Source of the DNA: Persicimonas caeni
GTDB lineage: Bacteria > Myxococcota_A > Bradymonadia > Bradymonadales > Bradymonadaceae
NCBI RefSeq assembly: GCF_006517175.1
Contig: NZ_CP041186.1
Coordinates: forward strand, 2,693,001-2,757,000
Length of the DNA: 64,000 bases
Reading direction: 5' to 3'
In this document: positions 13,395 through 55,583 of the stretch, in pieces
How positions within the stretch are numbered: position 1 is the stretch's first letter
How the letters are laid out: the number at the start of each line of letters is the position of its first letter
Notes under the pieces: generated by a model
The model's database searches: none
Told to the model about the DNA's origin: nothing
Seen by the model: the letters and a program-made list of their open reading frames with translations, nothing else
Made by a program: the position numbers and the translations under genes

Positions 13395-14159
13395 TGGCCT
13401 TGCCGGTGCGCGGCGCCTGCTACATGGGGCGCCCTGAACTGCGGGCGATAAGGACATAGGGGTCGCGCTGTCGGGGCGTGCGGGTTGTCGCAGCCTGCGT
13501 TGGAGGGGTCACAACCATCGTGGCGCGGCGCCTCGCAGCCCTCATGTCCTTAACGCGCGTAGTCCAGCGCGCCCCATGTAGAGGGCGTTCCTCCTCTGCA
13601 AGGCCTCCTCTCTGTTCTCAACACGGTGTCTGACACCGAGTTCAGCGGACACCGTGTCGCTGGCCTTGCCGGTGCGCGGCGCCTGCTACATGGGGCGCCC
13701 TGAACTGCGGGCGATAAGGACATAGGGGTCGCGCTGTCGGGGCCTTCGGGTTGTCGCAGCCTGCGTTGGTGGGGATTACAACCATCGTGGCGCGGCGCCT
13801 CGCAGCCCTCATGTCCTTAACGCGCGTAGTCCAGCGCGCCCCATGTAGAGGGCGTTCCTCCTCTGCAAGGCCTCCTCTCTGTTCTCAACACGGTGTCTGA
13901 CACCGAGTTCAGCGGACACCGTGTCGCTGGCCTTGCCGGTGCGCGGCGCCTGCTACATGGGGCGCCCTGAACTGCGGGCGATAAGGACATAGGGGTCGCG
14001 CTGTCGGGGCCTTCGGGTTGTCGCAGCCTGCGTTGGTGGGGATTACAACCATCGTGGCGCGGCGCCTCGCAGCCCTCATGTCCTTAACGCGCGTAGTCCA
14101 GCGCGCCCCATGTAGAAGGCGTTCCTCCTCTGCAAGGCCTCCTCTCTGTCCCTTGCCGA
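13395..14159. repeat. Three tandem ~266-bp units, each with a long imperfect palindrome (family A)
   Basis: Units start at 13395, 13661 and 13928 (spacing 266 and 267 bp) and are nearly identical. In unit 1 the left arm, CTACATGGGGCGCCCTGAAC onward at 13420-13463, pairs with a right arm ending GCGCGCCCCATGTAG at 13538-13581. The outer 13 bp pair perfectly and inner blocks such as AAGGACAT/ATGTCCTT also match. Between units 1-2 and 2-3 lie REP motifs (13621-13640, 13888-13907) and the sequence CAAGGCCTCCTCTCTGT. Short reading frames through the repeat are not credible genes. Confidence 0.9.
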
Positions 14160-16680: not shown

Positions 16681-16804
16681 ACCCGATCACTTTGGCCGAA
16701 CCAGCACCTTGAGGAGAACGACGAGAAATCGCCCATGACATCCGCCCGAAAATCGCGATCACTTTGGCCGAACTGAGCGCGATCAGTTTGCCCGTCCGTT
16801 GACA

Positions 16805-17056
16805 CACTTCTCTGTCGCCCGCCGACACTTCTCTGTGGCCCGCCCACGCTTCTCTGTAGCCTTCCAGCACTTCTCTGTAGCCGGTTTGAAGCATCTCTGT
16901 AGCCCACCGACGCTTCTCTGTAGCTCGCCGAGCTGTCTCTGTAGCCCGCCGACGCTTCTCTGTAGCCCGCCGACGCTTCTCTGTAGCCCGCCGAGCTGTC
17001 TCTGTAGCTCGGCGCGCTCTCTCTGTAGCCGCCCATTGCCTGCGCCGCCATCTCTG
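16805..17056. repeat. 21-bp minisatellite
   Basis: About a dozen tandem copies of a 21-bp unit with core CTTCTCTGTAGCCCGCCGA, some exact (16930-17000) and some varied at the GCCGACG/GCCGAGC position. One copy begins on the far side of the IS21 element (up to 14164), showing that the IS landed in the array. 21 is a multiple of three, so both strands stay open through the array, producing long spurious reading frames. There are no spacers of CRISPR type. Confidence 0.88.
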
Positions 17057-17998: not shown

Positions 17999-18096
17999 GA
18001 CACCGTGTCTGACACGGTGTCGCTGGACACGGTGTCGCTGGCCTTGCCGACACTTCTCTGTCGCTCGCCATCCCCACACGGTGTCTGACACCGTGT
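17999..18096. repeat. Cluster of REP palindromes
   Basis: Contains a REP variant at 17999-18020 (GACACCGTGTCTGACACGG), a half-site at 18025-18037, the phrase TTGCCGACACTTCTCTGTCG shared with the IS21 target, and a full REP at 18076-18096 with core CACGGTGTCTGACACCGTG. Located between the unknown gene and the FG-GAP lipoprotein. Confidence 0.85.
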
Positions 18097-20288: not shown

Positions 20289-20587
20289 ACACGGCATCTG
20301 ACACCGTGTTCATCGGGACACGGTGTCGCTGGCCTTGCCGATGCGCGGCGCCTGCTACATGGGGCGCCCTGAACTGCGGGCGATAATGACATAGGGGTTG
20401 CGCTGTCGGGGCGTTCGGGTTGTCGCGAACGACACGGTGTCTGACACCGTGTCGCCGGCCTTGCCGATGCGCGGCGCGTCGCAGCCCTCATGTCCTTATC
20501 GCGCGTAGTCCAGCGCGCCCCATGTAGAGGGCGTTCCTCCGCTGCAAGGCCTCCTCTCTGTCCCCAACACGGTGTCTGACACCGTGT
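20289..20587. repeat. Palindrome family A copy 4, with REPs at its ends and centre
   Basis: The left arm CTACATGGGGCGCCCTGAAC onward (20355-20397) and right arm ending GCGCGCCCCATGTAG (20484-20527) match the 13.4-14.1 kb units. Unlike those, the centre is replaced or interrupted by a full REP at 20432-20452. Further REPs lie at 20289-20309 and 20567-20587. The last one abuts the stop codon of the GH13 gene. Confidence 0.88.
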
Positions 20588-24019
<3,432 letters not shown>

Positions 24020-25412: not shown

Positions 25413-25832
25413 GGTGCCGAGTTAGGCGTGTGGTCCCCGAGAATATTCACCAACTGCAGAAAGCGTAGCGAAGATCCCCATTTCACGCCACTCGCACACG
25501 GGTGTCAGACACCGTGTTTTCGCCGCGCCCAACTGTGTCAGACACCATGTTTTTGCCCTTATTGAAACGGTGCCAGATACCGTGTTTACCCCGCAAAATG
25601 AGTGTGAGAGCGTGATCTCGCCTCGAAAGCACCCGCTATTTGCACAACATCGTGGCCAGAGCCTTGGCCTCGACTCACGCAACGACGGTCTGCGTTCGGC
25701 TCTCGGCGTCAGTGTCCGTCATTTTGGCAAAAATCGAGCCTCGAGGAGGCGATGAAGGCACACTTCGGCAGGCTCGCGACGCTTGAAGCGCGCGCAGGAA
25801 GGGAACGATGGCTGGTAGGGGTGGGGTTGGGT
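25413..25832. repeat. Gene-free stretch with three degenerate REPs
   Basis: REP-like palindromes at 25497-25518, 25533-25551 (GTGTCAGACACCATG) and 25566-25586 (CGGTGCCAGATACCGTG), each with one to three changes from the common core. They lie downstream of the RAYT gene in its direction of transcription. The rest (25590-25830) has no recognised feature; reading frames there lack ribosome sites. Confidence 0.75.
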
Positions 25833-26795
25833 TCACGCCACCTTGGAAGGCGGCTCTCGGCGGATTCGGGTGCTCCCTCCCTCGCAAAACTGATGGCCTG
25901 GTGGAATGGTGCCGTCGGGGAAAGTCACCGACGATTTGCCTTTGCGCCATCGGTCGATCGCTGTTCGGTAGCGGTCGACGAGAGCACGATAGTCTGCGCG
26001 GTATTCGCCGAGCTTCTCGAGCTTACTGCCGAGACACAACGGACGAGGCGCCCTTTTCGGCTCGTTGGGACGATCTTCCCAGTCTCGAGCTAGGACCTTC
26101 TCACGCCCAATGCACTTGCCGACACGCTTCTTATCGAGCTCGTCGGCATGATCGTGGCACACTTCGACGATCTTTTTGTGGTACGCCTCGTCGTCGAGGT
26201 CTTGCCACTGGGGGAGCTTGGCCATGTCGAGGGTATATGTCTCGGTGGCCATCTGGATGAGCTCGGCTTCCGTCTTGTCTTCGTTCTTCTTTTTGCGTTT
26301 CTCGGCCCAGTACGTCTTGCGATTGACGACTTTCCCCACAAGCGGCTCGCCGCTCTTGTGGATATCCCAGGAGCAGAGTCCCGGCCACTTCATCGGGTGT
26401 TGGACCAAGTTCGACTCGCAAGGATTGCACACGATGTAGCGCAAACGTTCGAGCAGCATCTCGTCGTCGAGCACGCGTATTGCGGTGTAGCGGCGCTCCC
26501 AGAAGGTACCTTTACGACCGCGTAGCTTGTTGATCTTCTTGGCCAACTGGCTCTGGAAGTCGCGCATGAACAGGTGCATCTGCAGGGAGGGGCAGCGCGC
26601 CAGGATGTGGAAGTGGTTGGACATGAAGCAAAACGCGAAGATCTCGACACTGTAGCGCCAAGCCATCTTCGCCAGCAGCCCCAAGATGATGCGGTTGACC
26701 TGCTCTTCGGGTAGAAGCGCGTAAATCTGGTGCAACGTGCGATTGCCCAGCTCGTAGATGGCATCCTTCTCTTGATTTCGCAGCGGGTGTCCCAT
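25833..26795 (-). CDS. REP-associated tyrosine transposase (RAYT)
   Basis: 320-residue HUH/Y1-type nuclease related to IS200/IS605 transposases; such single-copy proteins mobilise or maintain REP palindromes. The HUH metal site is visible as SNHFHILARCP near residue 60, followed by a helical segment and the FWERRYTAIRVLDDE motif near residue 100 characteristic of TnpREP proteins. The ATG at 26795 follows GGAG at 8 bases. A long basic C-terminal region after residue 165 exceeds the IS200 size. REP-like palindromes flank it: three at 25497-25586 and one near-perfect at 26948-26979. That arrangement is the standard context for a RAYT acting on those REPs. Confidence 0.92.
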   Translation of the reverse strand: MGHPLRNQEKDAIYELGNRTLHQIYALLPEEQVNRIILGLLAKMAWRYSVEIFAFCFMSNHFHILARCPSLQMHLFMRDFQSQLAKKINKLRGRKGTFWERRYTAIRVLDDEMLLERLRYIVCNPCESNLVQHPMKWPGLCSWDIHKSGEPLVGKVVNRKTYWAEKRKKKNEDKTEAELIQMATETYTLDMAKLPQWQDLDDEAYHKKIVEVCHDHADELDKKRVGKCIGREKVLARDWEDRPNEPKRAPRPLCLGSKLEKLGEYRADYRALVDRYRTAIDRWRKGKSSVTFPDGTIPPGHQFCEGGSTRIRREPPSKVA

Positions 26796-26947
26796 GTGTC
26801 TGTCTCCATCCGTGGTGAAGGTTCATCAACAGCCCTCATTACGGTTTTCGGCAGAAAGGGACGATTCGTTGCGTGATCGGGCAAAAATTCTTGCGGAGGC
26901 GGAGCGCACAGACATCCACGAGATCGCCCTCAGACGCGCATGAATAC

Positions 26948-26979
26948 TCACCCACACGGTGTCTGACACCGTGTGGGTG
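26948..26979. repeat. REP palindrome, longest near-perfect copy
   Basis: CACGGTGTCTGACACCGTG core extended on both sides by CACCCA and TGGGTG, giving about 15 paired bases either side of a central T. It lies upstream of the RAYT gene and downstream of pbpC (stop at 27040). Confidence 0.9.
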
Positions 26980-27039
26980 GGCGGCGAGATCGTGGTCATT
27001 TTTCTGTTTGCCTGCATGCTTCGATCTGGTGCCCCACCA

Positions 27040-29496
27040 CTAGCGCACCACCAATTTTCGGCGTGACGCCTGCCCGGCGGTGTTCATCACGACCAGCTCG
27101 TGCTCGCCCTGGGCGGGGGTCCACCACAAGGTGTCGTCACCGTCGACCTTGCCCAGAAACCGTCCGTTCACAAACCAGCTCAGCTGGCTCTGCGAGTTGG
27201 CGGCGTGTGCCTGCAGCAGGACCTTCTGACGCTCTTTCGGGATGCCGGGCATCAACACCAATGTCTGGCCCGGCGGCGGCGAGGCGATGGCCGGCGGGGC
27301 GGCCTCGCGGGCCGCACCGCAGTCGGAATGCATCGGCGGCGGTTCGCTCACATCACCCAGCCGCTCTTCCATCCAACGACGCACGTCAGGAGGAAGCTGC
27401 ACAAAGGACCGCGTCTCGAACTCCCGCCCCTGCCGGCACCGCGGAGTGAGCGCGCGACCCGTCTCCAGGTCGACGTCGACCTCCACATGGTACGGGCACC
27501 GCTCGGTCGGTACCGAACGGGTGGGCAAGTACACTTCCTCAATATGCTCGCATGCTCCACTGGGTAGATGACCTGAAAAGGAGCATACTTCGACCTCGGT
27601 CATCACCTCGTTGGGCATCGGGTCATCCAGCCGCGTGGTGTCGTCGAGCGCCTCCAAGATGTCGAAGAACAGCGGCGCCGCGGCCTGCGAGCCCACAAGG
27701 TACGTGCTCGGGGAATTGGTCAAGTTGCCCATCCACACCACCGCTGTGTACCGACTGCTCGAACCGGCCGTCCACGCGTCCTTGTGGCCGCTGCTGGTGC
27801 CGGTCTTCCAGTGAATAGCCCCCGAGGTGCCCGTCCCACGCGCACGCCCCGGAAAGTCCGGTCGGTCGCGCCGACGTAGTGCTTGTCGAGTCAGCCATGC
27901 GGCACCAGAGCTGACGACGCCAGAATCGCGTTTCGCGGTGTCAGACACCGTGTTTTTTCTGCGCTCCGACACGGTGTCAAACACCGTGTGGGCCCCATTC
28001 TGTGCGGGCGTGGCGGCCTTTGCGAGCACGCGCAACTCCGTGGCGCGTGCATCGTTGGCCAGCGCCGCGTACAACTCGGCCACCTCCACCGGCGTGGCTT
28101 CCACGCCGCCCACCGCGATCGACAACCCCGTGTCGCCCGGCCGCGGGTTGAACCGACGCAGCCCCAGCGCGCGCAATGTACTCTGGAACCGGTCGACGCC
28201 GACCTCCCCCAGCAGGTTGACGAACGGCACGTTTAAAGAGCGCGCCAAGGCGTCGTCCATGCGCACCAGCCCCGAGTATTCGTAGTTGTAGTTCTCGGGG
28301 CTGTAGGTGCCGTAGGTCACCGGGATATCCGATTCGAGATGCTCCGGGGCGATCAACCCGTCGTCGATGCCTTGGGCATACAGAAAGGGCTTGAGCAGCG
28401 AGCCGGTCGACCGGGCCACGTCGAACCCGGCAATCTGGCCGCCGTGGCGCGCATCGCTAAAGTCGAAGTTGCCCACCAGCGCGCGAATCTCGCCGGTCTG
28501 ATGCTCGGCGACGACCACCGCCGTATTGTGAATACCGTGGGTCTCGGCGACCGCCCGCCGCGCGTCGACGAGCTCCTCGACCGTTGCCTGCGCATACCGG
28601 TCCAGCGTCGTCTCGAAACGTCCCTCCTCGGGAGATCGAGCGCGCAGCCAAAACGCCAGGTGAGGAAGCCGCCGCGGCAATTGGGTCATCGCCACCGGCA
28701 CCTCCTCGGCGGCCACCTGCGCGTACGCCTCCTCGACGCTCAGCCCACCGCCGCCCTTCCCCGCCGACAACGCCCCCTCCTCGAAGAGCTTCTTGGCGAT
28801 GCGATTTCGCGTCTTCTCGAGCCGCTCGGCGTTCGCCTCCGACGGATGGTGCAAGGTCGGATTCTGCGGCACCGCCAACAACGTGGCGATCTGCGCGTCG
28901 GACATCACCTCGGCTGACTGCTCGAAGTAGGCCAACGACGCCGTCTCGATGCCCTCTCGGTTGCCCCCGTAGGGCACAAACCGAAGGTACGCCTCCAGAA
29001 TCTCCTCTTTGGACATGTGCACCTCGAGTTGCATCGCGCGCAGCGCCTCGACCATCTTCGAGCCCAGCGTTCGCGGCCTGGGCTCGAGCAGGCGCACCAG
29101 CTGCATCGTGATCGTCGAGCCGCCCGAGACGACCTCCCCGTAGCGCACGTTCGACCACGCCGCGCGTACAATCGCGATGGGGTCGACGCCGGGATGGTGC
29201 CAGAAACGCTCGTCCTCGAGCGCGATCAGCGCCTCGACATACGCCGGGTCCACTCGGTCGAGCTCCACCGGGATGCGCTGCTTGTCGTCACCCGACAAGA
29301 GCACATGCGCCGTGCTGCCGTCGCGCCAGGTCACCACCATCGAGTCGCGCACCGAGAGCCGCTCCGGCAGGGGGACCAAATGGGCTGCCAAAACCCCCGC
29401 AAAAACCAGCAACATGAAAAGTGTCAGACACCATGTGAGGGCTCTCAGGAGCCGCTTTCGGCCCCATCTGGTCCATTTTGTCACCAACGTGCGCAT
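27040..29496 (-). CDS. pbpC: Penicillin-binding protein 1C
   Basis: Bifunctional peptidoglycan synthase: GT51 glycosyltransferase plus transpeptidase, anchored by one N-terminal membrane span (about residues 20-40). 818 residues from the ATG at 29496, chosen for the GGAGGAG directly upstream; ATG 29511 is possible. The GT51 catalytic Glu is in ALEDERFWHHPG (about residue 94). The transpeptidase Ser366 is in STGSLLKP, with SLNVPF and KTGTSSG motifs following. The C-terminal ~90 residues form the PBP1C-specific domain. It follows the alpha-2-macroglobulin gene by 36 bases, the classic pairing. Two REPs are translated in frame around residues 503-521, and a REP half lies in the membrane span. 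Confidence 0.95.
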   Translation of the reverse strand: MRTLVTKWTRWGRKRLLRALTWCLTLFMLLVFAGVLAAHLVPLPERLSVRDSMVVTWRDGSTAHVLLSGDDKQRIPVELDRVDPAYVEALIALEDERFWHHPGVDPIAIVRAAWSNVRYGEVVSGGSTITMQLVRLLEPRPRTLGSKMVEALRAMQLEVHMSKEEILEAYLRFVPYGGNREGIETASLAYFEQSAEVMSDAQIATLLAVPQNPTLHHPSEANAERLEKTRNRIAKKLFEEGALSAGKGGGGLSVEEAYAQVAAEEVPVAMTQLPRRLPHLAFWLRARSPEEGRFETTLDRYAQATVEELVDARRAVAETHGIHNTAVVVAEHQTGEIRALVGNFDFSDARHGGQIAGFDVARSTGSLLKPFLYAQGIDDGLIAPEHLESDIPVTYGTYSPENYNYEYSGLVRMDDALARSLNVPFVNLLGEVGVDRFQSTLRALGLRRFNPRPGDTGLSIAVGGVEATPVEVAELYAALANDARATELRVLAKAATPAQNGAHTVFDTVSERRKNTVSDTAKRDSGVVSSGAAWLTRQALRRRDRPDFPGRARGTGTSGAIHWKTGTSSGHKDAWTAGSSSRYTAVVWMGNLTNSPSTYLVGSQAAAPLFFDILEALDDTTRLDDPMPNEVMTEVEVCSFSGHLPSGACEHIEEVYLPTRSVPTERCPYHVEVDVDLETGRALTPRCRQGREFETRSFVQLPPDVRRWMEERLGDVSEPPPMHSDCGAAREAAPPAIASPPPGQTLVLMPGIPKERQKVLLQAHAANSQSQLSWFVNGRFLGKVDGDDTLWWTPAQGEHELVVMNTAGQASRRKLVVR
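27935..27988. repeat. Two REP palindromes inside the pbpC coding sequence
   Basis: CGGTGTCAGACACCGTG at 27935-27951 and ACACGGTGTCAAACACCGTG from 27968, separated by 16 bases. They are read in frame as Thr-Val-Phe-Asp-Thr-Val and Thr-Val-Ser-Asp-Thr. The segment lies in a hydrophilic stretch between transpeptidase motifs, with no frameshift or stop. Confidence 0.85.
29421..29436. repeat. Degenerate REP in the pbpC membrane-span codons
   Basis: GTGTCAGACACCATGT, a REP core with one arm shortened, encodes part of the LTWCLTLFMLLVF membrane segment on the minus strand. It may be a decayed REP or a chance match, since only 16 bases agree. Confidence 0.5.
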
Positions 29497-29532
29497 CGCA
29501 GCCTCCTCCATTCTCCGACTCCATCCACCCGC

Positions 29533-35262: not shown

Positions 35263-35564
35263 CGCACCATCTCCATTCCGTTAGGGTTCGCGTTCTATCC
35301 TTCGACGCTACCCAAGGTACGGAGTGGTTGTTGTGCGCGTTTGGCCCGCGGGTTGCGCTTTACGGGCGAAAATGTGCAGAGGATGTGCAGAGAGGGCGAT
35401 CGCACGGTGTCTGACACCGTGCTCGGCACGCACTCCTACGCCGCCACGACACTCTGGAAAGACGCGCCAAACTCGCCTATAAATCTAGCGAACACTTAGA
35501 ATACCCTCTAATCACGAGTCTCCCCTCCCCCTGTCAGCGCCCCTCTTAAGCCGGGTTGGCGACC
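35263..35564. other. Divergent intergenic region with one REP
   Basis: About 300 bases between the alpha-2-macroglobulin gene (minus) and the rtcB promoter (plus). It contains a REP at 35402-35422 (core CACGGTGTCTGACACCGTG) and an AT-richer stretch at 35475-35520. No gene is seen. Confidence 0.6.
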
Positions 35565-39915: not shown

Positions 39916-42900
39916 ATGATGAAACGATCTCCGATGGTTGATGTTGGCAAACTCGTCCCGTGGCGCGTACCGCGTCACATGATTGGTCTCCTATTGATGG
40001 CCGGACTGGCCGTCAGTGGCTGCAGTGAAGAGGTCACCGGCCCGGACCCGGGCCTCGAAGACCCGGTGCAGGGTCAAGCGCTTCCGGTCAACCCCGGGAT
40101 CATCTGCCAAGAGCAGCACCCCGAGGGAGGCACGCGCGTCGAGGTCACCGGCGAAAATATGGCGCCGGTGCCCGTCGACCTGCCGGGCAACCCGACGGTG
40201 GCGCTGCCGTCGCTGTCGCTGATCAAACAAGCCACGCTCGGCGGCCAAGCCGAGACGGGCACGACGATCACGTACGGCAGCGAGCCGGGCGAGACCAACG
40301 CCTCGCTGCTCAGCTGGGAGAGCCAGTCGTTGATGGCCTTCCAGGTGCCCAACAGCCTGACGTTGGGCGACGGCACCGACGGCATGCTCCCCACGGGCGT
40401 GTATGACGTGCAGGTGACCAACCCCAACGAGTCCGACGCGACCTCGATGGGTGCGCTTGCGGTCGCGCCGCGGCCCACCGTCGAAGAGGTCAGCCCCGGC
40501 CTTGTCTGCGTGGCTCAGGGGTCGGAGACGATCACGCTGACCGCCCAGACGGTGCTTCGCATCGGCGACAACCAGGCGGTCGTGCGCATCGGCGGCAACG
40601 AATTCACCGTCGACTCGACCGACGGCTGCACCCCGGTGGCCCACGAGGGCCTCGACGCCGAGTTCTGCGACACCGTCACCGTCACCCTCGAGCAGGGCAG
40701 CCTGCCGGCCGGCTTCCACGACGTGGTGGTCGCCAACCCGGAGACGGCTGCATGTGTGAGCGACCCGGCCGCCGACGCGGTCAGCCTGCGCGTGGTCGAC
40801 GCCCCCGAGATCACCAGCATCGAGCCGGCCGCGCTTTGCAGCACCGAGCTTCCGGCCACCGTCACCCTGGTGGGCACCGGCTTTCTGGAGGTCGACGGCG
40901 AGCTTCCCACCGTCACGGTCAACGGCACCGACGTCACCGTCGACAGCATCGGCGGCACCTGTGAAGACCTCGAGACCCAGGGCGCCACGGTGCGCTCGTG
41001 CACCGAGGTCACCGTCACCCTGCCCGACGACCCGTCCATCTCGGCGGGCACCCAGACGACCGTCGAGCTGACCAACCCGGGCACCGCCGACTGCACCGGC
41101 CAGACCTCCACGCAACTGTCGGTCGCCGGGCCGCCCACGGTCACCGACGCACAGCCGTCCGAAATCTGCAGCGACCAGCCCGAGACGATCACGGTGTCTG
41201 GCACCGGGTTCGTCGACGGCGCCACCGTCACGGTGGGCACCGCGCAGGCGACCTCGGTCACCGTCAACAACGACGGCACCGAGCTGACCGCCGAGTTCAG
41301 CCAGGGCATCGCCCCGGGCACCTACGACGTCACCGTCGAGAACGCGCCCGGCTGCGGCGACACCCTCGAAGCGGCCATCTCCGTCGAGCCGACCCCGCTG
41401 GTCTTCTTCGTCGACCCGCCGGTCGTCTACAACGACATCGCCATCGAGGCGACGATCTTTACCACCGGCCTCGACGCCGCCGCCTCGACGGTCGAGGTGG
41501 TCGCCGACGACGGCACCGCCACCGCGTTGACCGGCATCCGCAGCCCGACGCGCTTCAACCGCATCCTGGGCACCATCCCCAGCGGGCTGACCCCGGGCGT
41601 CTACGACGTGCGCGTGACCAGCGACATCGGCTGTGCGGGCACCCTCGAAGACGCGATCACCATCACCGACACCACGACCATCGACATCGCCTCGGTCGAG
41701 CCGGCGTTCGTCTCGCCGACCGAAGCTACCGGCATCACGATCGCCGCCGACGCCAACTCCACGGCGCTGTTCGAGGCCACCCCGCGCGTCTACATCAACC
41801 CGAATCCGGCCCAGACCGGCGCGATCGCCACGGCGCTTCGCGCGGTCGAGTTCCAGGACGACCAGACCTTGAGCGCGGTCGTCCCCGGCGGGCTCAACCC
41901 GGGCACCTACGACCTCATCGTGGTCAACCCCGGCGGTGAAGTCGGCGTGCTCACCCAGGGCGTGACCGTGACCAGCGCCGAGCCGCCGCTCGTCACCGGC
42001 GTGCAGCCCGGCTCGTTCGACGCGGGCACCACGCCCACCGCCACGGTCTTCGGCGAGAACTTCCAGAGTGGCGCGACCGTCGAGTTCACCTGTGACCTCA
42101 ACGGCACCACGAGCACCCCGTCGGTGGGCGCCTCCTTCGTCAGCGCCACCGAGCTGACCATCACCCCCGACCTGAGCAACGTGTCGGCGGGCAACGTCTG
42201 CCTGGTGCGCGTGATCAACCCCGACGGCGCCTCCTTCGAGTTCTCGGCGGTCTCGGTCAAAGAGCCGGCCCAGAACTTGTTCCCCTTCTCGACCACCAGC
42301 AGCATGCAGGAGCCGCGTCGCGCCCTCGGCCTCGAGGCGGGACGTCCCACCGCCACCAGCCGCTTCCTGTACGCCATGGGTGGTGACGACGGCACGCTGG
42401 CCAACGCCAAGACGAGCGTCGAGTCGGCGCGCGTGGGCGTCTTCGGCGCCCTGGGAAGCTGGTTCGACCAGCGCTACAGCCTGCCCGAAGCGCGCACCCT
42501 GGCGTCGACGGCGATCATCGGTCGCTACATCTACATGGTCGGCGGCAGCAACGGCACCAGCGCTCAGAACACCCTGTACCGCGCCCAGATCTTGGATCCG
42601 TTGGCCGGCCCCGAGGTCACCGACCTCGACGCCGAGTTGGGCGACGGCACCACCGGCCTCGACGGAGGCACCTGGTACTACAAGGTCTCGGCGACCTTCC
42701 CCGACACCGACCCGGACAACCCGGGCGGCGAGTCGCTCCCCGGCGAGGTGCTGAGCGTGCAGCTTCCCGACCGTCAGGAGAATATCATCCTGACGCTGAC
42801 CTGGGATCAGGTGCCCGGCGCCGACGGCTACCGCATCTACCGCACCGCCGCGGCTGACGGCGACGCCGACAACGTCGAGCTTCTGGCCGAGGTCACCGAC

Positions 42901-52943: not shown

Positions 52944-55583
52944 ATGAAGAGTTTGATGCTCCGAAAGCTGCTCGGCCTGGCCCTCTTGCTTGTCCTGAGC
53001 GGATGCCTCAACGCCGCCCCCGACGCCCCGGGCAGTGCCCAAGCGCCCGCCCCGGCCGACGAAAGCAGCCAGCAAGATGGCCGCCAGCAAGATGGTAGCC
53101 AACAAGACGACGGCCCGCAGGGCTGGCAGACCGTGCGCCGGCCCTACGTGATCGCCGACGGCGAGGTGCAGCTGCACTTTACCCGCCCGGGCATCGTGCG
53201 TGACGGCGGCGAAGACCCCGAGGCCGACGACGCCATCGCCGAGGCGATTCGCGGCGCGCAGACCAGCGTCGACCTGTGCCTGTACGAGTTCAACCGCCCC
53301 GAGATCGTCGACGCGGCCGTCGAGGCGGCCAACAACGGCGTAGAGGTGCGCTTTGTGGGCGACGGCGACGAGCTCGAAGACGAGGGCTACGTGCGCCTCG
53401 AGCACGCCGGCGTGGAGATGGCGCTTCGCAAGCCGCACGACCGCATCATGCACAACAAATTCGCGGTCATCGACAACCGCATCGTGTTCACCGGCTCGAT
53501 GAACTACTCCGAGAACGGTGTGATGCGTAACAACAACAATTTGCTGCGCATCGAGAGCACCGACCTGGCCGACATCTACGCGCAGGAGTTCCAGCAGATG
53601 TACGACGAGCGCAAGTTCGGCCGCTCCAAAGAGCCGCTGGGGATCAGCCTGCCGGTGGGCATCGGCAACCGCCCCGCGGAGGTCTACTTCAGCCCGCAGG
53701 ACGACGCCGCCGAGCGTGTGCGCGACCTGTTGCAGGAGGCGGACACGCGCGTCTTCTTCATGATCTTTAGCTTCACCCACGGCGACATCTCCGACGACCT
53801 CATCGCGCTGGCCGACAGCGGCGTCGAGGTGGTGGGCATCTTCGACGAGAGCCAGGCACGCGGCCGCTACAGCGTCGACGAGAAGCTCGCCGAGGCGGGC
53901 TTGCCGGTCTTTATCGACGGCAACGAAAACGCCATCGGCTTTGCGGGCGGAAAGCTGCACCACAAGGTCATGCTCATCGACCCGGGCACCGACTCCGACC
54001 CGGTGGTGGTCACCGGCTCGTACAACTGGTCGAAGAACGCCACCGAGAATAACGACGAGAATATCCTCGTGCTGCACGGCCCCGAGTACGCCGCGCCCTA
54101 CCTCGAAGAATTCTGCAAGAACCTCGAGGTCGCCCGGCCCCACCCGGACATCCAGGTCAAGCCGCCCAACCCGTGCGCCAATCTGTTTACGCCGGTGCGC
54201 ATCAACGAGTTCATGCCCAACCCCGACGGCGCCGACAGCGACAACGAGTGGGTCGAGATCGTCAACACGGGCACCGCGCCCATCGACCTGACCGGCTGGC
54301 AGTTGGGCGACGGGCTTCGCAAGGCCCGCCACGTCTTTGGCGACGTGGTGCTCCCGCGCGGCGGCTCGATCGTCGTCTACAGCGGCGGCGCGACCGCGCA
54401 GAACCCGCGCACCGTCGCCTCGACGGGGTATCTGGGGCTGGCGAATAACGCCGACGAGATCGTGCTGCGAGACGAGCACGACGTGGTCATCGACCGGGTG
54501 GCCTACAAGAGTGCCGAGTCGGGGATTTCGTTCAACCGCGACCCCGACGGGGGCAAAGAGGGCGACTTCGTGACCCACGACACGCTGGGCACCGGCCTCG
54601 AGAGCTCGCCGAACCGCCGCGCCGACGGCACCGCGTGGGCGGGCCAGCCGCAGGTCATCATCAACGAGCTCTTCCCCAACCCGTCGGGCACCGACGACGG
54701 CAACGAGTTCATCGAGCTGGTCAACGCGGGCAGCGCGTCGGTCAACCTGCAGGACTGGCAACTCGGCGACTCGGTCGCCGGCGACCGCCACGTGTTCAGC
54801 GCGCGCACCCTCGGCCCGGGCGAGTCGGTCGTGGTCTTCGACAGCGGCTCGCACACGAGCATCGCGAACGCGATCACCTCGTCGTCGGGCACGCTGTCGC
54901 TCAACAACACCGGCGACACCATCACGCTGGTCGACCACCTGGGCCGCCACGTCGACCAGGTCCAGTACGCCGGCTCGACCGACGGGGCGAGCCTCAACCG
55001 CCAGACCGACGGCAGCCCCTTGGCCGCGATGGTCGACCACGACACCATCGGCAGCGCGCTGGGAAGCTCGTCGCCGGGCACCCGCGTCGACGGCAGCCTG
55101 TGGACGCGCGCCGACCTGGAGACCCGCGTCATCATCAACGAGGTCTTCCCCAACCCCGACGGCTCGGACGCCGGCCAAGAATTCGTCGAGATCATCAACG
55201 TGGGCACCCAGACCGCCGACCTGAGCGGCTGGACGCTGGGCGACGCGGTCGTCTCGGACCGACACACCTTCCCCAGCGACACGCGCTTGGCGCCCGACGG
55301 CGTCATCGTCGTGTTCGACAGCGGCACCCACGACACGGTGTCAGGGGCCGTGTCGGCCAGCAGCGGCAACTTGTCGCTGAACAACTCGGGCGACGTGATC
55401 ACCCTCTTCGACACCGGCGGTGAGCCGGTCGACGCGGTGCACTACGACAACGCGACGTCTGGCAAGAGTTTGAACCGCCTCGACGACGGCAACCCCGACA
55501 GCCCCCTCGACTACCACGACCAGGTGTCGGGCGCGGTGGGCAACAGCTCGCCGGGGCTTCGGGCGGATGGGTCGGCGTGGTGA
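52944..55583 (+). CDS. Phospholipase D-type lipoprotein with three lamin-tail domains
   Basis: 879 residues from the ATG at 52944. Lipobox VLSGC near residue 21, then a Gln/Asp/Ser-rich linker with a QQDG repeat. A PLD catalytic domain spans about residues 65-390: the two HKD motifs are HNKFAVIDNRIVFTGSMNYS (about 170) and HHKVMLID with GSYNWSKN (about 335). Three lamin-tail/LTD beta domains follow at about 410-545, 565-705 and 725-860, starting RINEFMPNPDG, IINELFPNPSG and IINEVFPNPDG. PLD enzymes cleave phosphodiesters in lipids or DNA, and LTDs often tether extracellular enzymes. It may be an exported nuclease or phospholipase on the cell surface, possibly predatory. Transcribed with the lipoprotein upstream. 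Confidence 0.93.
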   Translation: MKSLMLRKLLGLALLLVLSGCLNAAPDAPGSAQAPAPADESSQQDGRQQDGSQQDDGPQGWQTVRRPYVIADGEVQLHFTRPGIVRDGGEDPEADDAIAEAIRGAQTSVDLCLYEFNRPEIVDAAVEAANNGVEVRFVGDGDELEDEGYVRLEHAGVEMALRKPHDRIMHNKFAVIDNRIVFTGSMNYSENGVMRNNNNLLRIESTDLADIYAQEFQQMYDERKFGRSKEPLGISLPVGIGNRPAEVYFSPQDDAAERVRDLLQEADTRVFFMIFSFTHGDISDDLIALADSGVEVVGIFDESQARGRYSVDEKLAEAGLPVFIDGNENAIGFAGGKLHHKVMLIDPGTDSDPVVVTGSYNWSKNATENNDENILVLHGPEYAAPYLEEFCKNLEVARPHPDIQVKPPNPCANLFTPVRINEFMPNPDGADSDNEWVEIVNTGTAPIDLTGWQLGDGLRKARHVFGDVVLPRGGSIVVYSGGATAQNPRTVASTGYLGLANNADEIVLRDEHDVVIDRVAYKSAESGISFNRDPDGGKEGDFVTHDTLGTGLESSPNRRADGTAWAGQPQVIINELFPNPSGTDDGNEFIELVNAGSASVNLQDWQLGDSVAGDRHVFSARTLGPGESVVVFDSGSHTSIANAITSSSGTLSLNNTGDTITLVDHLGRHVDQVQYAGSTDGASLNRQTDGSPLAAMVDHDTIGSALGSSSPGTRVDGSLWTRADLETRVIINEVFPNPDGSDAGQEFVEIINVGTQTADLSGWTLGDAVVSDRHTFPSDTRLAPDGVIVVFDSGTHDTVSGAVSASSGNLSLNNSGDVITLFDTGGEPVDAVHYDNATSGKSLNRLDDGNPDSPLDYHDQVSGAVGNSSPGLRADGSAW

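Follow-up and report, generated by a model that had tools for sequence, protein, structure and literature searches.

The window analysed here, a 64-kb stretch of a genome that holds 8.05 Mb on a single contig, carries a gene for a RAYT-class transposase of the Y1/HUH type and, on both sides of it, copies of a short palindrome (Table 1). The protein matches the Y1_Tnp family (Pfam PF01797, 36.8 bits, cut-off 23), and its nearest curated model is the RAYT model NF047646, with 69.3 bits under a cut-off of 80; its sister proteins reach 43-73 bits against the same model. Judged by these scores, the protein is closest to NF047646 but does not qualify as a curated equivalog. With the IS200 model (transpos_IS200, NF033573) it scores 19.6 bits, under the cut-off of 55. 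The HUH motif N60-H61-F62-H63 and the residues Y120...N124-P125 are kept in at least 27 of 28 aligned rows as well as in 6 of 6 rows of a second, smaller alignment, and the catalytic residues are intact. A Foldseek search with the predicted structure gave as top match 4ER8, in which the E. coli RAYT is complexed with a REP hairpin, followed by the TnpA proteins of IS608 and ISDra2; the AlphaFold model of the protein is weak (mean pLDDT 54), its HUH core alone being usable and its C-terminal half unreliable. This RAYT subfamily is marked by a C-terminal part of about 180 residues that contains a conserved FPxGT motif. Family match, conserved HUH and Y---NP residues and fold match all bear out the identification of this reading frame as a RAYT in a preliminary description of the window.

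The same description had listed 15 palindromes. We searched the window on both strands for CACGGTGTCTGACACCGTG, allowing up to 3 mismatches and using shuffled sequences as control, and obtained 28 match rows as compared to a mean of 0.05 in the shuffles. Each of the 15 sites lies within 1-4 nt of where it had been placed, and 14 of them differ from CACGGTGTCTGACACCGTG or from its complement at 0-3 positions; the site listed as 29421 is doubtful. Two weaker sites were absent from that list, one at 41190 (2 mismatches, within a gene) and one at 55334 (3 mismatches). The sites at 13622 and 13889 are not independent, because both lie in one 267-bp tandem duplication (13505-14038, one palindrome per copy), of which a diverged third copy occupies positions 20451-20717. 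A 21-bp tandem array with a consensus near GCCGACGCTTCTCTGTAGCCC is found at 16783-17051. Genome-wide, the core GGTGTCWGACACC has 96 occurrences and its reversed control none.

Table 1. The RAYT unit, the palindromes of the window and the genes of the second RAYT subfamily. Positions refer to the window, except those of L022 and L023, which refer to the genome (G000).
Feature	Position	Strand	Basis or remark
Complete, putatively mobile RAYT unit, ~1.45 kb	25565..27009	-	ends from information content, 13-14 unrelated insertion sites
Left terminal box AAACAGAAA	27001..27009	-	homology among copies begins here; flank ~0 bits outside
Left-end terminal palindrome (gene 5' side), perfect 19-mer	26955..26973	-	in all 17 copies
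RAYT/TnpA_REP-class Y1 HUH transposase, 320 aa	25833..26795	-	Pfam, motifs, fold match
Right-end terminal palindrome (gene 3' side), degenerate copy	25566..25584	+	found in 15/17 copies
Tandem extra palindrome adjoining right end	25531..25549	+	33-36 bp direct spacing
Tandem extra palindrome adjoining right end	25498..25516	+	motif search, direct spacing
Loose palindrome, first copy of 267-bp tandem duplication	13622..13640	+	motif search
Loose palindrome, second copy of 267-bp tandem duplication	13889..13907	+	motif search
Loose palindrome variant CACCGTGTCTGACACGGTG	18001..18019	+	motif search
Loose perfect palindrome	18077..18095	+	motif search
Loose palindrome, 2 mismatches	20290..20308	+	motif search
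Loose perfect palindrome	20433..20451	+	motif search
Loose perfect palindrome	20568..20586	+	motif search
Host gene, penicillin-binding protein 1C (PBP1C), two in-frame palindromes	27040..29511	-	TIGR02073, 611 bits
Second in-frame PBP1C palindrome, peptide NTVSDTA	27934..27952	+	36 bp from first
In-frame palindrome in PBP1C, peptide HTVFDTV	27970..27988	+	segment absent from 11 related proteins
Doubtful palindrome-like site	29417..29435	+	listed as 29421; 4 mismatches, chance possible
Loose perfect palindrome	35403..35421	+	motif search
L022, second RAYT subfamily gene	G000:C1:3892746-3893657
L023, second RAYT subfamily gene	G000:C1:6775239-6776132

The genome contains 17 full-length uninterrupted RAYT copies including that of the window, and two more of a sister subfamily. 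The other 16 share 65-79% amino acid identity with the window's protein, and the 17 copies are monophyletic with a support of 100/100. They lie in units that consist of AAACAGAAA, the palindrome, the gene, the inverted palindrome and NNTT; at the left end AAACAGAAA is followed after about 38 nt by ACGGTGTCAGACACCGT, and the right end reads ACGGTGTCTGACACC-NN-TT. The palindrome is located 172-180 nt upstream of the ATG in 17 of 17 copies, with a C-rich stretch outside it, and an oppositely oriented one 241-278 nt past the stop codon in 15 of 17, while in L012 and L024 no right palindrome can be recognised where it is expected. Unit lengths range from 1436 to 1475 bp. Column conservation drops to about zero just outside AAACAGAAA and within some 4 nt past the right palindrome, and the flanks of the 17 units are mutually unrelated. 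The palindrome is predicted to form a strong hairpin of 27 nt with a 12-bp stem and a 3-nt loop.

The units appear to be intergenic, and joining of the flanks of 15 of them gave no convincing interrupted gene. No target duplications were found at the unit flanks, no conserved target sequence was seen at the left flank by column conservation, and an empty site for a whole unit was not found in comparison genomes of which the nearest belong to other genera. Two pairs of copies, L019/L020 and L021/L026, are 96% and 97% identical in DNA sequence, respectively, over the entire unit including the non-coding ends. Because most copies are diverged (72-94% DNA identity), recent activity of the unit rests on these two pairs. 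Paralogue dN/dS values of 0.05-0.23 indicate purifying selection. A transposing element leaves such traces, namely dispersed units that have their ends in common, lie in unrelated flanks and contain a coding sequence under selection, and the flanking REPs of the preliminary description would be the terminal hairpins of an IS-like mobile element. Its placement of the RAYT between two REPs was thus correct in that palindromes flank the gene and has to be amended in that these are the ends of a 17-copy unit.

Could the gene instead be a fixed and domesticated RAYT which, as in a classical REPtron, mobilises REPs in trans, its 17 copies having arisen by repeated horizontal transfer or by duplication of the gene? 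RAYTs are described as mostly single-copy and their mobility as without evidence (PMC8266576; PMC6006769), and the intra-genome copies known from other class 2 subclasses are distantly related (PMC6006769). However, the copies described here are monophyletic and have ends in common to within a few bp but no flanking sequence, the pairs of 96-97% identity include the non-coding ends, and duplication or horizontal transfer would bring the flanks along. We consider this explanation highly improbable.

In five units (L008, L009, L010, L015 and L019) an additional palindrome precedes AAACAGAAA at a short distance, which might mean that units are inserted next to palindromes or that the left end is at times longer, and some units have a palindrome array at the right end. 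The cleavage point may therefore vary.

How does the unit compare with known systems? With the RAYT/REP system (REPtron) of E. coli and Pseudomonas it shares a class 2 Y1 HUH protein (Y---NP), whose best fold match is 4ER8, cognate palindromes at the gene and loose palindromes scattered in the genome. It differs in that 17 copies with common ends are present as opposed to mostly one fixed copy, in that the palindromes are unit ends at fixed distances and have no GTAG foot, and in that singlets and direct pairs are found instead of inverted REPIN doublets. At 320 amino acids the window protein moreover has a long C-terminal extension as compared to the REP-linked subclasses 2.2, 2.4 and 2.5, whose median lengths are 151-194 amino acids (PMC6006769). 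A tyrosine transposase gene between terminal inverted repeats and without a GTAG tag is also what characterises the TIRYTs (TIRtrons), which mostly belong to Quentin subclass 2.1 and of whose TIRs some are self-complementary and repeated in the genome, and some but not all contain a GGGGWSAS motif (Di Nocera 2013, PMC3733652). Different from these, the unit has a high copy number and common ends, and its TIR palindrome is spread as a repeat family of about 25 bp with many copies within genes.

Subclass 2.3 (Quentin 2018, PMC6006769) resembles the window's subfamily in protein length (~325 amino acids), in several copies per genome and in their identity of about 75%, and has been reported without REP-like flanks. 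We rejected membership of the window protein in this subclass, as it contains YIVCNP, not YVDLNP, and has no 55-aa insertion between beta3 and alphaC; the locus L032 looks like a real member. Members of the IS200/IS605 family such as IS608 and ISDra2 have in common with the unit the Y1 HUH fold, subterminal hairpins, a single gene and the lack of target duplication. They differ from it in their class 1 Y---Q signature, which contrasts with the Y---NP of the window protein (Y120, then NP), whereas here both ends are inverted copies of one palindrome and no conserved target sequence was seen at the left flank. The nearest precedents are TIRYTs with inverted repeats and the multi-copy subclass 2.3. 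Compared with these, the unit stands out as a RAYT-class gene that acts like an IS and whose ends are the apparent source of REP-like repeats; among open-licence papers, a search with the letters of the motif returned unrelated papers alone.

Across 72 distinct solo sites the loose palindromes are conserved over about 23-25 bp only, AACA-CGGTGTCAGACACCG-TGTT, and their flanks carry hardly any information; the consensus foot of the hairpin is AACA/TGTT, and the canonical GT[AG]G foot of GTAG REPs is absent. Singlets account for 41 of the 58 solo clusters, and the multi-site clusters are mostly direct repeats 26-76 bp apart, commonly 33-46 bp. Inverted REP doublets, which constitute the REPINs of Pseudomonas (PMC3116915), are not the dominant arrangement among the 58 clusters. 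When the motif was mapped against the RAYT genes of the genome, 21 of 46 solo loci fell within 20 kb of a RAYT copy as compared to 3.9 expected, which upholds the clustering around the RAYT claimed earlier, with the cognate copies only; it could partly reflect insertion-tolerant regions. By contrast, the notion of one resident RAYT that disseminates nearby REPs does not fit a unit which is present in 17 copies and appears to move, nor loose palindromes of which REPIN doublets are not the main form and about 40% lie within predicted genes. A third short palindromic repeat, roughly GGGGGCATCTTGCCCTC, is found beside several solos (flanks of L086, L088, L064 and L077).

An ordinary TIR-bounded IS (TIRtron) whose decayed or internally deleted copies persist as passive palindromic relics would account for such solos too. 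Remnants of units exist, because some solos (e.g. 3399206 and 5581535) carry inner-end sequence, and TIRYT elements are known (PMC3733652). Decay would, however, leave longer and variable remnants, whereas the 72 solos are barely conserved past ~25 bp and as a rule lack AAACAGAAA and the inner CATGCGC...GCGCGATC box; moreover, two palindromes form a clean in-frame addition in PBP1C. A relic origin thus appears unlikely to us. To the idea that the palindromes are signals of the host, which terminate transcription or bind proteins and have nothing to do with the transposase, we give hardly any credence: although a simple gene caller places 43 of 75 solo sites in intergenic regions and the predicted hairpins are stable, all RAYT units have a palindrome at one end and 15 have it at both, palindromes are found in frame inside some 19 genes, and they are absent from relatives.

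The remaining 32 of the 75 solo sites lie in genes predicted by this mechanical, codon-usage based caller, and 28 of the 32 read as TVSDTV or a close variant. Counted by gene and for better-supported genes only, the TVSDTV-type frame is used in 18 of 19 (P ~8e-7 if the five stop-free frames are equal). On the sense strand, 17 of 18 genes carry the T version GGTGTCTGACACC rather than GGTGTCAGACACC (P ~1.4e-4, one mixed gene omitted), and both encode TVSDTV. As the well-supported genes were chosen after seeing the list, the P values for frame and strand are descriptive. The frame bias is most simply explained by selection for a tolerated peptide.

In PBP1C, whose gene adjoins the window's RAYT, the segment HTVFDTVSERRKNTVSDTAKR is missing from 11 related proteins (45-53% identity) in relatives. 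A family-B DNA polymerase, again with two palindromes, has an extra 18-residue segment around NMVSDTVQDGVNMVSDTM as compared to its one close relative. This part of the analysis is least secure with regard to the gene calls, the identity level of the PBP1C relatives and the polymerase comparison, for which there is a single relative. Other apparent host enzymes, named by sequence motifs, are a RecD-like helicase, in which the palindrome lies within a region too variable for sizing an insertion, and an N6-methyltransferase. In a MobA-like gene (L057) no clear difference in length from MobA sequences is seen by eye, so that the palindrome may have replaced sequence there rather than been inserted. 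An N6-methyltransferase-like gene (L074:2466-4766, G000:C1 ~3.992 Mb) contains four 21-aa tandem repeats, which are made up of the palindrome and another repeat, GGTGCGGGGGCATCTTGCCCTCG.

But might the intragenic palindromes be convergent D-T-V-S coding repeats of secreted-protein linkers rather than insertions? Several host genes (L061, L069, L070, L073, L076 and L081) do encode D/T/S-rich linkers in which DTVSDTV could arise by codon repetition, and codon repetition could contribute in these. As a general explanation it is improbable, however, since other hosts resemble conserved enzymes (PBP1C, family-B DNA polymerase, RecD-like helicase, N6-methyltransferase), relatives of PBP1C and of the DNA polymerase are without the segment, and the TCT version is on the sense strand in 17 of 18 genes even though serine is encoded by TCT as rarely as by TCA. 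Rickettsia palindromic elements (RPE) are palindromes that are inserted in frame within protein genes. Intragenic REPs have been described as well (PMC3733652, PMC6006769). The palindromes studied here resemble both in lying in frame inside protein genes and differ in being tied to a resident multi-copy transposase, in their size of ~25 bp and in the dominance of one frame.

Taken together, we think it likely that the locus represents one copy of an autonomous IS-like element and that the same RAYT protein spreads palindromes of about 25 bp from its ends. The only gene of this ~1.45-kb element would be that of the RAYT-class (TnpA_REP-related) Y1 HUH single-strand transposase, and the inverted palindrome pair would constitute the ends. 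The transposase may bind the 27-nt hairpin on single-stranded DNA and cut outside of it with Tyr120, and the unit would then be excised and reinserted as in IS608; the single-stranded DNA route is suggested by the transposase family. If it used one end hairpin or a loose copy as substrate, the same protein could spread single palindromes of ~25 bp nearby, and among insertions into genes the survivors would be limited to in-frame, tolerable ones. The source of the REP family would be the element's own ends, still or recently active. With respect to the wider proposal, that an undomesticated RAYT-class transposase moves autonomously and that the loose palindromes are its end hairpins released as independently mobile ~25-bp singlets, we lean towards accepting it.

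The genome bears on the origin of REPs and on the spread of RAYTs. The RAYT class is regarded as tame and single-copy, yet in this genome such a gene and its palindromes resemble a single mobile unit whose ends can be defined. This suggests that short repeats of this kind may originate from ends that have broken away from a transposon. The system allows direct tests of how RAYTs transpose and of how REPs are released and enter genes, with the independent second RAYT/repeat pair of the genome as an internal control. The sister subfamily (L022 and L023; 40-42% amino acid identity) has different ends. Its repeat, CGTAAGGGAACCAGGTTCCCCGACGAGGCCCATTCTATGCGGGT, is a double hairpin of about 50 bp with 35 exact core sites (loci L137-L146), and 18 of 23 loci of this family 2 repeat lie within 60 kb of its own RAYT genes as compared to 0.7 expected; neither repeat is enriched near the RAYT genes of the other subfamily. 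If our proposal is true, the genome shows the birth of a REP family twice, as each of the two RAYT subfamilies would supply a repeat of its own, and numerous in-frame insertions into proteins, for which one strand is preferred, would be part of it. The family 2 repeat copies from 6.78 to 6.83 Mb all have one orientation.

Among the 57 genomes of the class, a RAYT with more than 44% identity to the window's is found in its own genome only, and the exact motif, with its 96 occurrences there, is present at most three times in each of the 56 relatives. The motif and its close RAYT are thus confined to the same genome and the motif is not abundant in relatives without this RAYT, which strengthens the link between RAYT and palindrome drawn in the preliminary description. 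A scan of genome contigs with the window RAYT yielded distant relatives only, of 25-34% identity. Among related genomes, G006 and G029 contain other multi-copy members of the RAYT family, and the sister subfamilies in G000 (L022/L023), G006 and G008 have inverted repeats of their own. In the distant relative G029 a RAYT of 24-28% identity is present in at least nine copies (L124-L132), which have sequence in common from about -65 to past the stop codon, without obvious inverted repeats, which suggests another expanded lineage.
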